Shown here: one piece after another, positions 1 to 5,722 of the stretch
How positions within the stretch are numbered: the first letter of the stretch is position 1
Layout of the letters: each line of letters begins with the position of its first letter
DNA from: Chloroflexota bacterium
Lineage (GTDB): Bacteria > Chloroflexota > Limnocylindria > Limnocylindrales > CSP1-4
Length of the DNA: 13,146 nucleotides
Direction: 5' to 3'
Assembly (NCBI GenBank): GCA_021812735.1
Contig: JAKAMV010000180.1
Span: 1 to 13,146 of the forward strand
Position numbers and translations under genes: made by a program
The notes under the pieces: generated by a model
Seen by the model: the letters and a program-made list of their open reading frames with translations, nothing else
Database searches by the model: none
Told to the model about the DNA's origin: nothing

Positions 1-27
1 GTCTCGACCACGCGCTTCGCGACTTGT

Positions 28-134
28 GCCACTGGCGGCGAGCAGGCGGGCCCGCCATCGTTGGGCGGCACGCAGGAGGCGACGAAACGCGGCCCAAACC
101 CTGCGCCGCCGGGACCGCGCCGAGCCACTGGCGG
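28..134. repeat. Short direct repeat in the left-edge non-coding region
   Basis: The 11-base word GCCACTGGCGG occurs at 28-38 and again at 124-134, 96 bases apart, upstream of the first gene. I see no convincing gene, promoter or RNA in 1-165. The possible reading frames there are arginine- and proline-rich and look like GC-driven shadows. The repeat may be chance in such GC-rich DNA. Confidence 0.25.
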
Positions 135-154
135 ACCCGGCCCGCGTGGGATGC

Positions 155-159
155 AGGAG
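155..159 (+). promoter_or_regulatory. Ribosome binding site of the SRPBCC gene
   Basis: AGGAG lies six bases before the ATG at 166. It decides for this start over the in-frame ATGs at 61 and 151. Confidence 0.65.
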
Positions 160-165
160 TCCGCC

Positions 166-630
166 ATGAACGCCGTCATCAACAGCGTGCACCACGAGAT
201 CCGGGTGGACGCCCCGGTGGAGCACGCCTTCGATTTCGCGCGCCGGTCTGACCGGCACCACGACTGGAACCCGTACCTCACGTTCTTCCACGCTTCCGAG
301 CCGCTCGACACGGTGGGCAGCACGTTCGACGTGATCCTCGACCTCGCCGGCCAGAGCACCTCGTTCCGCGGCACGGTGGCGGAGGCCAAGCCGAACCGGC
401 TGATCCGCCTGCACCTGGCCGGGGAGAAGGGCAACGCCGACTGGATCTATCGGTTCGAGCCGGCTGGCGAGGCGACGCAGTTCACGATTGACGTCGAGTA
501 CGAGAGGGACGGCCTGTTCGCGGGGGTCGTGGACCGGCTGATGTTCCACGGCGGGCTGGAGCGCGCCGTCCGGCACGTCGCCGAGAGCTTCGCCGCCATG
601 GCGCCGTCCGCGGTCCCCGTGACGGCCTGA
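166..630 (+). CDS. SRPBCC (START-like / polyketide cyclase) family protein
   Basis: This 154-residue soluble protein is probably a single helix-grip SRPBCC domain, a fold that encloses a hydrophobic ligand pocket. The N-terminus HHEIRVDAPVEHAFDFARR is the typical first strand and helix of the family. It is followed by a W-N-P-Y segment, alternating strands (FDVILDLAG, FRGTVAEA, LIRLHLAG, FTIDVEYE) and a long C-terminal helix ending ...RHVAESFAAM. The ligand and reaction cannot be read from the sequence; relatives include cyclases, lipid binders and stress proteins. I chose the ATG at 166 because AGGAG lies at 155-159 with a 6-base spacer, and the domain starts right after it. The frame stays open upstream to an ATG at 61, but that extension is low-complexity. 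No partner gene is evident, and the next gene is convergent. Confidence 0.8.
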   Translation: MNAVINSVHHEIRVDAPVEHAFDFARRSDRHHDWNPYLTFFHASEPLDTVGSTFDVILDLAGQSTSFRGTVAEAKPNRLIRLHLAGEKGNADWIYRFEPAGEATQFTIDVEYERDGLFAGVVDRLMFHGGLERAVRHVAESFAAMAPSAVPVTA

Positions 631-662
631 CGTCGTGCGCCGGCACGGCGACCGACGCGTCG

Positions 663-703
663 GGGCGGCGCGCCGCGGTCTGCCTGCGGCCGCCGCGCCG
701 CCC
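663..703. terminator. Strong GC hairpin between convergent genes
   Basis: GGGCGGCGCG (663-672) is a perfect 10-bp complement of CGCGCCGCCC (694-703). The 21-base loop holds a smaller CCGC/GCGG pairing (673-676 with 686-689). It lies in the 87-base gap where the SRPBCC gene and the mttB-like gene meet tail to tail, so it could stop transcription from both sides. There is no T-tract, as is common in very GC-rich genomes, so the terminator role is inferred. Confidence 0.55.
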
Positions 704-717
704 GCCGACGCTGACAG

Positions 718-2160
718 CTAGCCGGCGGTCGCCGTCTCGGCGGCCGCCACGATGGCGTCGAGCTCCGCCGCCACGCCGTCGGCGAACGGCAGCGGCCGGT
801 GGCCGCTGATCGCCGCGAATGCCTTCTCGCGCGCCTCGTCGAGGATGTCCGGGCGGCCGGCCCCCTCGAAGCGGTCCCACGTGCTGTGCCAGCCGAGCCT
901 GGGCATGAACCACTCACCGCCCCGCACGGCGTCACGGGTCGCGGTCCGGGCCAGGAAGTCCCCCACCGGGCCAACCTCGTCGAGCGCCGCCACGACATCG
1001 GCCTCGCCCACGGTGCCGTCGAGGCCGCGGGCGAGCCGCCGGCTCATCCGGTAGATCTCGACGTCGATCACCATCGTCTCGAGGCACAGCGTGGAAGCGC
1101 CGCCGAGCGACCCGGGGCCGATGAGGATGTCCGGCCACGACAGCACCGGCAGCAGCCAGTTGAGCGTCCGCTCGTAGGTGGCCTGGATGCCCGCCGCGAA
1201 GTGGTCCGTGCCGCCGTTGGACGCGGTGACCGGCAGGCCGTAGGAGCGGCCCATCTCGGTGGTGGCCGCGCCGAGCAGCGCGTGCTCGGGCCCGCCGCCG
1301 GCCCAGCGCCCGGTGCGCGGCTCCATGGCCGCGAGGGCCGGCGCGTAGATCACCGGCGTGCCCGGTGCCATGGCCTGGACCAGGCACAGGGCGCCCAGCA
1401 CCTCGGCGTTGCCGGCCACCACCGTCGAGACCAGGCCGGCCGGGGCGGATGAGCCCATCATCGGCATCGGCATGATCGCGATGGGGATGTCCCAGCCGGC
1501 CGTGGCGAGGTAGGCGTCCGTGTGCGGTTCCTCCATCGCCAGCGGCGAGACCGGGCAGTAGAGCACGCTGAACGGGTGGAGCTCGCGGACGCGCTCCCGG
1601 GAGCCGAAGACGGTCTCGAGGATGCGCAGGAGCCACTCGGCCTGGCGCGGCCCCGCGATCTCGTCCTGGATGTGCTTGCTGAACAGCGCGTGCGTGTCGC
1701 GCCAGTGGCGGGCCGAGCGGGCCGGGTCCGGCCCATCCTCGCCCGCGGTGACCATCTGCCAGTACAAGCCCACCTCGTCCATCGTGTCGATGAGCCTGGT
1801 GGCGTTGGCCCAGTCGTCCCGCGTCGAGGCGCGCCGCTCCCCGGTGACCGGGTCGTAGAACATCGTGGTCTCGCCGTCCGGCATCAGCGTGCACTCGCCC
1901 GCGTTCATGCGCAGCTCGAAGCCCTCGCGCCGACCGCCCAGCGAGAACCTCCGGGGCGCGGCAGCCAGCGACGCCTCAACCAGCGAGCGAGGGAAGCGCA
2001 CCCGGCGGTCGGCGTGGTCCACCCGGGCGCCGGCCGCCTCGAGGATGCCGCGGGCGCGCTCGGAATCGACCCGCATGCCCGTTCGGGCCAAGACCGCCAG
2101 GCTCTTCTCGTGGACCTCGCTGATCTGCGCGTCGGTGAGGACGCGAAGAAGGGTCGGCAT
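718..2160 (-). CDS. Trimethylamine methyltransferase (MttB) family protein, non-pyrrolysine type
   Basis: This 480-residue protein matches the usual length and layout of the MttB superfamily. The N-terminal region (LTDAQISEVHEKSLAVLARTG, then a VRFPRSLVEASLAAAPRRF segment) is characteristic. So are the middle motifs around residues 240-260 (MPMPMMGSSAPAG) and the glycine-rich GPGSLGGAS stretch near residue 350. Family members move a methyl group from a quaternary or tertiary amine to a corrinoid protein. True trimethylamine enzymes use pyrrolysine (UAG), but here the frame is continuous with no internal TAG. It therefore belongs to the larger non-Pyl group, whose characterised members act on compounds such as glycine betaine; the substrate here is unknown. 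No corrinoid protein, reactivase or transporter lies beside it. The ATG at 2160 is preceded by GGAG (2166-2169) five bases upstream. The stop is TAG. Confidence 0.85.
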   Translation of the reverse strand: MPTLLRVLTDAQISEVHEKSLAVLARTGMRVDSERARGILEAAGARVDHADRRVRFPRSLVEASLAAAPRRFSLGGRREGFELRMNAGECTLMPDGETTMFYDPVTGERRASTRDDWANATRLIDTMDEVGLYWQMVTAGEDGPDPARSARHWRDTHALFSKHIQDEIAGPRQAEWLLRILETVFGSRERVRELHPFSVLYCPVSPLAMEEPHTDAYLATAGWDIPIAIMPMPMMGSSAPAGLVSTVVAGNAEVLGALCLVQAMAPGTPVIYAPALAAMEPRTGRWAGGGPEHALLGAATTEMGRSYGLPVTASNGGTDHFAAGIQATYERTLNWLLPVLSWPDILIGPGSLGGASTLCLETMVIDVEIYRMSRRLARGLDGTVGEADVVAALDEVGPVGDFLARTATRDAVRGGEWFMPRLGWHSTWDRFEGAGRPDILDEAREKAFAAISGHRPLPFADGVAAELDAIVAAAETATAG

Positions 2161-2295: not shown

Positions 2296-2742
2296 TCACC
2301 AGAGCCGGAGCTGGTCCGTTCGGCGGAGCCAGGACAAGGCGACGAAGCCGAGCCCGAACCCGATCGCCAAATACAGCCAGGTGAGGAACATGGTCGCGGG
2401 CATCACCAGGATCTCGACAAGGATCCACACGATCAGCCCCACGCCGAGGGCGCCGGTCAGCCACGGGGCGGCCCAGTGCCTGAGGATCGAGAGGCCGGCA
2501 AGCACCAGCATCCCGACGCCGTTGACGAGGAGCAGGTACAGGCCGGGCACCAGGTAGGACCCGAAGGGGGTCGCCTCGATCCAGCCCCGGGGGAGCTGGA
2601 CCAGCTGGCCGGTCGGGTCGATCAGGAACATGATCCCGACCGGGATCGCGCCCAGGGCCGTGAGCAGCTCGAGCACCACGGCGATCCAGACGTAGCGGGG
2701 ACGCCCTACCCGGGCATCGCCCGGCATGACCTGAACGTGCAT
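2296..2742 (-). CDS. Small four-helix membrane protein, unknown function
   Basis: I do not recognise this 148-residue protein. After a short polar start (MHVQVMPGDARVGRPR) there are four hydrophobic segments, at about residues 18-41, 62-84, 93-116 and 117-137, and a short charged tail ending RTDQLRLW. The first and second helices are separated by a loop with P-x-G-Q-L-V-Q-L-P-R-G-W. No cofactor motif or conserved charged residue inside the membrane stands out. The frame is open upstream to residue 1 of a longer version at 2847. I chose the ATG at 2742 because GAGG sits seven bases before it (2750-2753) and the upstream extension is arginine-rich and low-complexity. It runs in the same direction as the mttB-like gene but 135 bases away, with the repeat between them, so the two need not share a transcript. 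Confidence 0.65.
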   Translation of the reverse strand: MHVQVMPGDARVGRPRYVWIAVVLELLTALGAIPVGIMFLIDPTGQLVQLPRGWIEATPFGSYLVPGLYLLLVNGVGMLVLAGLSILRHWAAPWLTGALGVGLIVWILVEILVMPATMFLTWLYLAIGFGLGFVALSWLRRTDQLRLW

Positions 2743-2998
2743 GATCCACCCTCTCCGCGGACGCGGGACGCCGCGTCGGAGCGAATACCGCGCGAGGCCG
2801 CCGCCGCGAGGTCCCTCTGACCCGAAAGCGGCGGATGGTGGGTACACGGCACCAGTGCCTGACAGCCCGTCCCGACGCGCCGGTTGGGGTCGCGCAGTCG
2901 CGCCGCGGCATTTGCCGGGGCGCCGTGGCGGGGAGGGCGGGACGAGGATGACACCGGCCCGGGCTCGTCGTCCGCGCCCGCTGTTGCGCCCGCCCGGC

Positions 2999-3029: not shown

Positions 3030-3033
3030 GAGG
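3030..3033 (+). promoter_or_regulatory. Ribosome binding site deciding the GTG start of fdhA
   Basis: GAGG is seven bases before the GTG at 3041. The frame stays open upstream to 2741, but that stretch has no cysteines and no family resemblance. This site supports the short N-terminus. Confidence 0.55.
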
Positions 3034-3040
3034 TACGCCA

Positions 3041-4957
3041 GTGCCCAGGGAGTACGTCCGCCTCACCACGCCGCTCGTGCGCGACGGCGACCGCAGCTCC
3101 CCGCTCCGCCCCGCCACCTGGGACGAAGCGCTGGACCGGGTCGCCGAAGGGTTCAAGGCGGCTGGCGCGGCGCACGGCCCCAAGACCTTCGGGATCTTCA
3201 GCTGCAGCCGCTCGACCAACGAGATGAACTACGCAGCGCAGAAGTTCTCCCGGCAGGTGTTGGGATCCAACAACATCGACAGCTGCAACAGAACCTGACA
3301 CGCTCCCTCTGTCGCCGGTCTGGCGACCGTGTTCGGAGCCGGTGGTTCCACCAACAGCTACAAAGAGGCCGAGGAGACGGATCTCATCCTCCTGTGGGGC
3401 AGCAACGCCCGGGAGTCGCATCCGATCTTCTTCCACCACATCCTCAAGGGTGTCCGCAATGGCGCGCGCCTGATCGCGGTGGACCCGCGCCGCAGCTCGT
3501 CGGCCCAGTGGGCTGACCTGTGGCTGGGCCTGGACGTCGGCTCTGACGTGGCGATGGCCAACGCGATGGGCCGCGAGATCATCGCCGCCGGCCTGGCGGA
3601 CGACGAGTTCATCCACCGCGCCACCTCGGGCTTCGAGTCGTACCGCGAGCGCGTGGAGCCGTACACGCTGGAGTACGCGGAGCGCGTGACCGGCGTTCCG
3701 GCCGAGGCCATCCGCGAGGCGGCCCACGCCTACGCCGCCGCCGACAAGGCGATGATCTGCTGGACGCTGGGGATCACCGAGCACCACAACGGCGTGGACA
3801 ACGTCCTCTCGCTCATCGACCTGGCGCTGCTCACCGGCCACGTCGGCAAGTGGGGCTCCGGCGTGAACCCGCTCCGGGGCCAGAACAACGTCCAGGGCGG
3901 CGGCGACAGCGGCGCCCTGCCGGATCGCCTGCCGGGCTTCCAGCACGTCGAGAACGACGCGCTGCGCGCTGCGTTCGATACGGCGTACGGCGTCGCGATC
4001 CCGCCCAAGCGCGGCTGGAACCTGACCGGCATGTACAACGCCATGGAGCGGGGCGAGCTCACCGCCGTCTACTGCATCGGCGAGAACCCGGTTCAGTCCG
4101 AGGCGGACACGCACCGGGTGAAGCGGCTGCTGGGCGGGCTCGAGTTCATGGTGGTCCAGGACATCTTCCTGACCGCCACCGCCGAGCTTGCCGACGTCGT
4201 GCTGCCGGCCGCCGCCGCCTGGGCCGAGACCGAGGGCACCGTCACCAACTCCGAGCGCCGCGTCCAACGCGTGCGCAAGGCGATGGACCCGCCGGGCGAC
4301 GCGAAGGAAGATCTCTGGATCATCTTCGAGATCGCCAAGCGGATGGGGTACGACTGGGGCGAGCCCTCGGCCGAGAAGGTCTGGGACGAGTTCCGGAGCC
4401 TGGCGCCCGCGTTCCGGGGCATGACCTATGCCCGGCTCGAGGCGGAGGACGGCCTGCAGTGGCCGTGCTACGACGAGAGCCACCCGGGCGAGCCGTTCCT
4501 GCACTCGCGCCTGTGGGCGGACCCGGTGCCCGGCAAGCGCGCCCTGTTCGTCCCCGTGGACCATGACCCGCCGGTCGAGGAGCTCAGCGAGGAATTCCCG
4601 ATGCGCCTCACGACGGGGCGTCGGCTCGATTCGTACAACACCGGTGTCCAGTCCGGCCCGCTGCGGTTCCCGCGGCGCAAGGGCGAGACGCTGGACCTCT
4701 GCCCCGAGGACATGCGCGCCATGGGTCTCGAGGAGGGCGAGGTTGTGCGGATCGTGTCGCGACGCGGCCAGGTGGAGGCGCCGGTCAGGACGGAGCGCGC
4801 GCTGCGGCCCGGGCTCGCGTTCATGACGTTCCACTTCCCGGACACGGTGAACGTGAACACCATCACGATCGACGCCACGGACCCCAAGGCCGGCACCGCC
4901 GAGTTCAAGGCGGCCGCGATCCGGATCGAGAAGCTGGCGCCGGTCGCGGTCGGCTGA
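3041..4957 (+). CDS. fdhA: Selenocysteine-containing formate dehydrogenase catalytic subunit, lacking the N-terminal [4Fe-4S] domain
   Basis: This subunit interconverts formate and CO2 at a Mo or W bis-PGD centre. The reading frame runs through TGA at 3296-3298, read as selenocysteine (residue 86), for 638 residues in all. Flanking residues NNIDSCNRT-U-HAPSVAGL match the FdhF active site (NNVDCCARV-U-HGPSVAGL). His87 and Arg279 (in LRGQNNVQGG) correspond to E. coli His141 and Arg333; the Sec-to-Arg distance is 193 residues in both. Residues ~13-430 form the molybdopterin oxidoreductase core. Residues ~518-632 are the C-terminal dinucleotide-binding domain, ending with HFPDTVNVNTITIDATDP and a terminal EFKAAAIRIEKL. 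Compared with FdhF (715 residues), the first ~54 residues with the CxxCxxxC...C cluster site are missing, and none is encoded in any frame upstream. It faces the hydrogenase operon tail to tail. Electron partner unknown. Automated callers will split it into two ORFs. Confidence 0.93.
3296..3298 (+). other. Selenocysteine codon (in-frame TGA)
   Basis: The only in-frame stop between 3041 and 4957 is this TGA. It sits exactly where formate dehydrogenases carry Sec or Cys as the metal ligand, directly before the conserved histidine. Decoding requires SelA/SelB/SelC/SelD, none of which is in the window. Confidence 0.92.
3298..3339 (+). promoter_or_regulatory. Bacterial SECIS hairpin directing UGA recoding
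   Basis: Downstream of the TGA, GTCGCC (3311-3316) pairs perfectly with GGCGAC (3322-3327) around the five-base loop GGTCT (3317-3321). The loop starts 18 bases after the TGA, the spacing seen in E. coli fdhF, which also has GGUC(U) at the tip. Two lower stems are possible: ACACG/CGTGT (3298-3302 with 3328-3332) or GCTCC/GGAGC (3302-3306 with 3335-3339). The bulged U known from the E. coli element is not obvious here; U residues in CTCT (3307-3310) are candidates. Confidence 0.85.
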
Positions 4958-5167: not shown

Positions 5168-5722
5168 TCAGGTGGGGCCCGTCCCAGCGAAGGGGGCCAT
5201 CCGCCCCACGGCCAGGAGGAGCCCGTGGATGAGCGCCTCGGGCCGCGGCGGGCACCCGGGCACGAAGACGTCCACGGGCAGCACCTCGCCCACGCCATCC
5301 CGGCCGGCGTAAGTGCCGGCGAACACGCCCCCGCTGATCGCGCACGCCCCGACCGCCACGACGAGCCGCGGCTCCGGCATCGCCTCGTAGGTGCGACGGG
5401 CGGCCTCCTCTAGATTACGGGTCATGATCCCGGTGACGAGGAGCAGGTCGGCATGGCGCGGCGAGGCCACGAAATCGACCCCCAGGCGCTGGACGTCGTG
5501 GTACGGGTTGAGGAGGGCTGAGATCTCCCAGTCGCAGCCGTTGCACGAACCAGCGTCGAGGTGCCGCACGTGGAGCGAGCGGCCGAGGAGGCGATGAACG
5601 GCGCGCCGCAGTTCGGCGGCCTCGTCAGGCTCGACTGTCCCGGCCGGCTCGACCGTCCCGGCCGGCTCGACTGTCCCGGCCGGCTCGACTGCCGGCATGG
5701 CGTCCCGGTGGCGATCCGTCAC
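5168..5722 (-). CDS. hyfI: Group 4 [NiFe] hydrogenase small subunit (HyfI/HycG/NuoB-like)
   Basis: This subunit carries the proximal [4Fe-4S] cluster that passes electrons to and from the NiFe site. All four ligands are present: C60 and C63 (GSCNGCDWEI), C127 (VGACAISGG) and C157 (VPGCPPRPEAL). The segment SPRHADLLLVTG is typical of the NuoB/HyfI family. At 184 residues it is a compact member without a long C-terminal extension. The GTG start at 5722 overlaps the hyfH stop (GTGA) and has GGAGG at 5731-5735. An ATG at codon 9 is possible but has no better ribosome site. Residues 12-32 are an unusual tandem VEPAGT repeat between the start and the conserved domain. It is the last gene of the hydrogenase operon and ends facing fdhA. 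Confidence 0.9.
   Translation of the reverse strand: MTDRHRDAMPAVEPAGTVEPAGTVEPAGTVEPDEAAELRRAVHRLLGRSLHVRHLDAGSCNGCDWEISALLNPYHDVQRLGVDFVASPRHADLLLVTGIMTRNLEEAARRTYEAMPEPRLVVAVGACAISGGVFAGTYAGRDGVGEVLPVDVFVPGCPPRPEALIHGLLLAVGRMAPFAGTGPT
5628..5691 (-). repeat. 18-base tandem repeat inside hyfI
   Basis: Three full 18-base units (5628-5645, 5646-5663, 5664-5681) and a 10-base partial unit (5682-5691) encode VEPAGT repeated three times plus VEP at the HyfI N-terminus. The units differ only by C/T at one position (5636/5654/5672), so the array is recent or actively homogenised. Unit number can change by slippage without breaking the frame. Confidence 0.9.

Follow-up and report, generated by a model that had tools for sequence, protein, structure and literature searches.

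A formate dehydrogenase gene with an in-frame TGA codon

The stretch of DNA analysed here, referred to as the window, comprises 13,146 nucleotides from a Chloroflexota bacterium (contig JAKAMV010000180.1) and carries a gene (fdh) for the catalytic subunit of a formate dehydrogenase (FDH). Inspection of the reading frame bore out what an earlier note on this DNA had claimed, i.e. that positions 3041-4957 form a single frame on the forward strand, in which a TGA codon at 3296-3298, preceded by IDSCNRT and followed by HAPSVAGL, is the sole internal stop. Read through, with selenocysteine (Sec) at residue 86, the frame yields a product of 638 amino acids (aa). The features of the gene are as follows:

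3030..3033, + strand: GAGG, a likely ribosome-binding site judging by its sequence, 7 bases ahead of GTG 3041
3041..4957, + strand: FDH catalytic subunit with Mo/W-bis(pyranopterin guanine dinucleotide) domains only and no [4Fe-4S] domain (frame, Pfam, NCBIfam)
3296..3298, + strand: in-frame TGA, predicted to be read as Sec, residue 86 (frame, related loci, hairpin)
3311..3327, + strand: hairpin resembling a selenocysteine insertion sequence (SECIS), stem 3311-3316/3322-3327, loop GGUCU 3317-3321 (conservation, Escherichia coli fdhF, predicted fold)
3875..3877, + strand: codon of Arg279, the active-site arginine, 193 residues past Sec (alignment)

The in-frame TGA is neither a chance occurrence nor a sequencing error, since it recurs in a second assembly, from an almost identical strain (G000:C200, with 19 mismatches to the window over 12475 bases), and in a public contig from a metagenome-assembled genome (MAG) labelled Chloroflexi (L076), the protein of which is 97% identical to that of the window. 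The earlier expectation that standard gene calling would cut the gene at this codon fits the protein data as well: the 120 relatives among the matches listed (8000 scored) were 492-566 aa long and spanned 77-85% of the query, which is what the portion downstream of the TGA would give.

The read-through protein was matched by the NCBIfam model for FDH alpha subunits, TIGR01591, with 663 bits (E 3.9e-199), ~3 bits below the model cut-off of 666.25, and over profile positions 53-672 only. Pfam identified the Molybdopterin (PF00384) and Molydop_binding (PF01568) domains in this protein, while PF04879, representing the [4Fe-4S] domain, was not matched. The spacing of 193 residues between Sec86 and Arg279, the arginine of an RGQNN motif, equals that in E. 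coli FdhF (U140 and R333 in strain MG1655), as previously pointed out, and Sec86-His87 and Arg279 were invariant among 34 aligned members, as expected for a catalytic subunit. Both a [4Fe-4S] cysteine motif and CxKG were absent from the open frame upstream of fdh, not only in the window but also in all 110 related loci (in two of these 111 rows the frame runs off the locus). A mis-assigned start was therefore rejected: the gene is short by nature, and GTG 3041 is likely to be its true start.

Conservation of the TGA codon and its downstream hairpin

To place the codon in its family context, 110 related loci were compared, 30 derived from whole genomes of relatives and 80 from public records, some of which share contigs. 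The motif DSCNRT-x-HAPSV was present in all 110, with x encoded by TGA in 88 and by a cysteine (Cys) codon (TGC or TGT) in each of the remaining 22, consistent with the assertion that the TGA occupies the residue that is Sec or Cys in the family. A genome search returned 43 rows, and all 37 split-type rows covering the codon (i.e. those whose protein, like that of the window, lacks the cluster domain) carry TGA. The 22 Cys sequences come from named strains of Saccharopolyspora, Lentzea, Kutzneria, Amycolatopsis and Nonomuraea, and the TGA carriers include a cultured organism, Allonocardiopsis opalescens DSM 45601 (L122).

In a phylogenetic tree of the window, 79 of the 80 public loci (L135 was dropped as too short) and three outgroups, the split-type sequences grouped together with a support of 100, while the Cys sequences, nested among TGA sequences of Actinomycetota, were accounted for by a single change (group support 57); this tree was built by a quick method with support from the SH-like approximate likelihood ratio test only, has long outgroup branches and was rooted at its midpoint. 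Records of the clade are labelled with eight phyla (Chloroflexota, Actinomycetota, Acidobacteriota, Gemmatimonadota, Myxococcota, Planctomycetota, Armatimonadota and, as one bin, Bacillota), labels which mostly derive from MAGs. Plasmid records gave 254 matches, each below 60% identity.

Directly 3' of the TGA, the window sequence contains a hairpin with its GGUCU loop at 18-22 bases after the codon; loop and offset are identical in E. coli fdhF, and the same hairpin appears in the computed fold of the window sequence. Among 99 distinct sequences (from 110 loci and the window, identical ones being dropped), all six stem pairs were intact in 77/77 TGA sequences versus 0/22 Cys sequences, and the loop was retained in 77/77 versus 1/22. 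Stem variation among the TGA sequences was confined to one pair flipped from C-G to G-C (two rows) and two further pairs maintained through G-U or U-A. General folding measures, however, weigh against a selenocysteine insertion element. Folding energy after the TGA was no better than that of synonymous shuffles (mean z 0.08 for the 77 TGA rows), and the Cys rows folded better (mean z -0.60, n=22; Mann-Whitney p 0.005), i.e. in the wrong direction. The window itself scored z -1.48 against dinucleotide shuffles and gave no Rfam match at gathering thresholds, and its stem lacks a bulged U, which is a feature of the E. coli stem. As the folding-energy test was negative, the specific hairpin was used as the SECIS evidence.

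The shared position with Cys, the hairpin found only alongside TGA and the use of TGA as a stop elsewhere indicate, at the level of sequence, that TGA 3296-3298 is a selenocysteine codon and not a broken one. The presence of sel genes in close relatives (see below) lends further support to Sec at this position. If the TGA were instead a disabling nonsense mutation, the gene would yield fragments only, and the lack of sel genes above cut-off in the nearest binned genome and of selA, selB and tRNA-Sec in three others (G007, G067 and G071) would fit such a pseudogene. This explanation is very improbable, however, given that the codon is shared by 88/110 loci whose records bear the labels of eight phyla, that the active-site residues are invariant, that the hairpin is retained only with TGA, and that the window copy has no second lesion; a further in-frame stop was observed in two other loci (a TAG elsewhere in the G032 gene, and one in L135). 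Genome-wide reassignment of UGA to tryptophan or glycine, with which a lone in-frame TGA would be equally compatible, was judged to have next to no likelihood. TGA terminates fdh and, among 12 further genes inspected nearby, 10 (11/13 gene ends), which disfavours a changed code; moreover, fdh contains 13 TGG codons versus one internal TGA, and the alternative codon is Cys in 22/22 loci.

The [4Fe-4S] domain is encoded by a separate gene

The Mo-proximal [4Fe-4S] domain that is absent from the window FDH was found at the end of a separate protein encoded beyond the window. On the second assembly, a NuoG-like protein of 357 aa is encoded at G000:C200:16681-17751; it contains [2Fe-2S] and [4Fe-4S] domains, and its last part, residues 295-347, corresponds to the Molybdop_Fe4S4 domain, with the C-terminal end NLCVKGRFGFDF. 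Directly ahead of it, G000:C200:14765-16684 encodes a NuoE-NuoF fusion (nuoEF). The NuoG-like partner aligned with residues 21-311 of Rhodobacter capsulatus FdsA (6tg9) and the window FDH with residues 308-931; as these alignments meet at 308-311, the two proteins together match one FdsA. This architecture was invisible to the earlier note, as the other half is encoded outside the window.

A NuoEF match was present in 67/80 public loci, with a gap of less than 100 bases between fdh and nuoEF in 59 of these 67, and the order fdh-nuoEF-FeS partner on one strand was observed in 60/80. A narrow Fe4S4 motif was recovered in 36/80 loci, in which the frame ends 7-37 residues past CxKG. Among 121 genomes searched, split-type FDH was identified in 38, of which 36 contain the FeS partner, whole or in part; four further genomes had the partner but no match to the FDH. 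A 39th FDH match (G120), which is fused, of the Cys type and 41% identical, falls outside the 38.

The frame at 3041-4957 thus very probably specifies, as far as can be read from sequence, the Sec-containing catalytic subunit of a presumably cytoplasmic FDH whose FdsA-type alpha chain is split over two genes. Certain observations detract from this interpretation. Of the 20 public loci without a partner match, 15 have less than 3.7 kb of downstream sequence, while five labelled Chloroflexi (L077, L080, L085, L086 and L087) lack a partner within 7 kb downstream, although L087 does possess nuoEF. In the window lineage, nuoEF and the partner are located ~10.5 kb and ~12.4 kb from fdh, respectively, behind a hydrogenase cluster on the opposite strand, so that co-transcription is not seen there.

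Two additional partial matches to the FeS partner were noted, one at G000:C330:12828-13322 on the reverse strand (76% identity over residues 192-356, interrupted by a TAA) and one on G001:C266.

Selenocysteine machinery in related genomes

The earlier note had maintained that the organism must possess a working Sec pathway. In the nearest binned genome (G000; 88% complete, 7% contamination), none of the genes it named gave a match above cut-off: selA was unmatched, SelB and SelD gave sub-threshold matches only, and no tRNA-Sec (selC) exceeded the cut-off, the eight best places being called tRNA-Ser, -Arg, -Gly or -Asn by ARAGORN. The claim consequently rests on relatives. In the 38 genomes with split-type FDH, selA was found in 34, selB in 32, tRNA-Sec in 33 and all three in 31 (tRNA-Sec rows below 55 bits were left out, and relatives were searched using Infernal with stricter filters); at least one of the three was present in 34. 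The genus-mate G001 encodes selA and selB, and G043, whose FDH is 97% identical to that of the window, has selA and tRNA-Sec.

In 20 of the 33 genomes with tRNA-Sec, this gene is located upstream of fdh on the same contig. The gene order SRPBCC-MttB-orf-fdh is common to G002 and the window, and in G002 tRNA-Sec lies ~2 kb past the SRPBCC gene, a place that would lie ~2 kb beyond the left end of the window. Contig G000:C200 starts at window position 672, and window positions 1-670 are represented in G000 by two short 78% matches. The sel genes of this strain may therefore have been lost in an assembly gap. Counting against Sec insertion in this strain are the failed searches in G000 and the absence of selA, selB and tRNA-Sec from G007 (92% complete), G067 and G071 as well, despite the presence of FDH. 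Furthermore, selA was found in 23/28 TGA but also in 13/22 Cys public genomes (given for 50 of the 80 loci), so that some Cys carriers could retain other selenoproteins.

Comparison with known formate dehydrogenases and proposed electron path

The earlier note had taken E. coli FdhF and FdnG as models. The likeness to FdhF holds with respect to Sec, the active-site spacing and ~40% identity, while FdhF differs in carrying its own N-terminal [4Fe-4S] domain (CPYCASGC, CLKG), and a split FdsA-type enzyme is the better model. The Mo part of the cytoplasmic NAD+-dependent FdsABG(D) of R. capsulatus is 36% identical to the window FDH by structure alignment, its NuoG-like FeS region aligns along its length, and a NuoE/NuoF-type diaphorase is linked to fdh in both the public loci and G000:C200. 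FdsA is described as one chain with Cys in excerpts of the literature (PMC13397495), whereas the FeS and Mo domains of the present alpha subunit are distributed over two chains cut at approximately FdsA residue 310, most members contain Sec, and NuoE and NuoF are fused. According to excerpts of another report, Bacillus subtilis ForCE (YjgC/YrhE) differs from the window FDH in being fused, in having Gln rather than His after its Cys, and in being menaquinone-linked (PMC8808070).

Fused FdsA-type FDH with a TGA at the Sec site also occurs in the same bacterial family, indicating that the split does not result from the way genes were read. In G060:C6:26102-27979 (L215 1603-3480), the FeS domains are fused in one frame, with NuoEF-like matches just downstream and a split Sec-FDH on the same contig, and a partial FDH with a Sec-site TGA is present on G051:C142; both are 45-46% identical. 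G060 (90% complete, 8% contamination) accordingly holds two differently built FDH genes with a Sec codon.

In FdhF and FdsA, the N-terminal [4Fe-4S] domain passes electrons away from the metal. For the split enzyme, SelB, guided by the hairpin just past UGA 3296-3298, would insert Sec86, a step that is strongly indicated. By analogy with the family, Sec86 and two pyranopterins would coordinate the Mo or W, and formate would be oxidised beside Sec86, His87 and Arg279. Complementarity with FdsA and the gene linkage suggest that the two chains form a complex in which electrons exit through the [4Fe-4S] domain at the C-terminus of the NuoG-like partner, via the lysine of its CVKG motif. They may then run along the clusters of this partner to the NuoE-NuoF fusion, whose presence points to NAD(P)+ as the acceptor. 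The split FDH is thus probably NAD-linked, and its physiological role would probably be formate oxidation for reducing power.

The Sec codon, although correctly recognised, is ordinary in itself, since FDH alpha is the selenoprotein family present in the most organisms according to excerpts of a survey of >5200 genomes (PMC5029168). More informative is that, in this Sec/Cys FDH clade, the [4Fe-4S] half is part of a protein of its own; as far as the available text of open-licence PMC literature goes, no description was found of a split FdsA or of this arrangement. With its gene cut at the TGA in the listed protein entries and its cluster domain on another protein, a clade spanning eight phylum labels can readily escape recognition as a complete enzyme, and metagenome counts of formate oxidisers may miss it. 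The Sec and Cys branches, in both of which the alpha chain is split, could serve as a natural comparison of the way in which Sec is lost, and also of whether the first electron transfer can pass from one subunit to another.

Neighbouring genes in the window

Positions 5168 to ~13000 are occupied on the reverse strand by a group-4 [NiFe] hydrogenase (hyf/hyc-like) cluster, encoding a small subunit, a two-cluster ferredoxin, a NuoCD-like large subunit with CYACTDR at its end, together with membrane subunits; on G000:C200, this hydrogenase-4-like cluster lies between fdh and nuoEF on the opposite strand. FdhF works in formate hydrogenlyase (FHL; 7z0t), and the window FDH might similarly act with the adjacent hydrogenase, instead of or besides the NuoEF and FeS proteins. 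The cluster adjoins fdh, its large subunit is closest to HycE of FHL (7z0s) among solved structures, and RACGVC and CYAC motifs are retained (read by eye). This arrangement is nonetheless considered unlikely, as linkage of FDH to a group-4 hydrogenase was not found across relatives (tblastn with five Hyf proteins matched 0/80 public loci, with flanks of up to 7 kb and often less), whereas nuoEF and the FeS partner accompany fdh in 60/80. In addition, fdh and the hydrogenase genes converge, the window proteins scanned included no second HycB-like linker, and the missing [4Fe-4S] domain sits on the FeS partner. A similarly doubtful variant is that in this lineage the Sec catalytic subunit is an exchangeable module, docking on either the NuoG-like/NuoEF proteins or the group-4 hydrogenase and thereby switching between NAD-linked FDH and FHL; the alpha chain would have been cut where the Mo-proximal [4Fe-4S] domain ends, and the hyf cluster would later have come inside the operon.

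On the other side of fdh, positions 718-2160 (reverse strand) encode a 480-aa protein of the trimethylamine methyltransferase (MttB) family, whose gene also neighbours fdh in several of the closest relatives. As its profile is covered to the end without an internal stop, it does not appear to be the pyrrolysine form. Between MttB and fdh, positions 2296-2847 (reverse strand) contain a membrane-like open reading frame of 183 aa, which has no Pfam or NCBIfam match and is 73% identical to its counterpart in G002.
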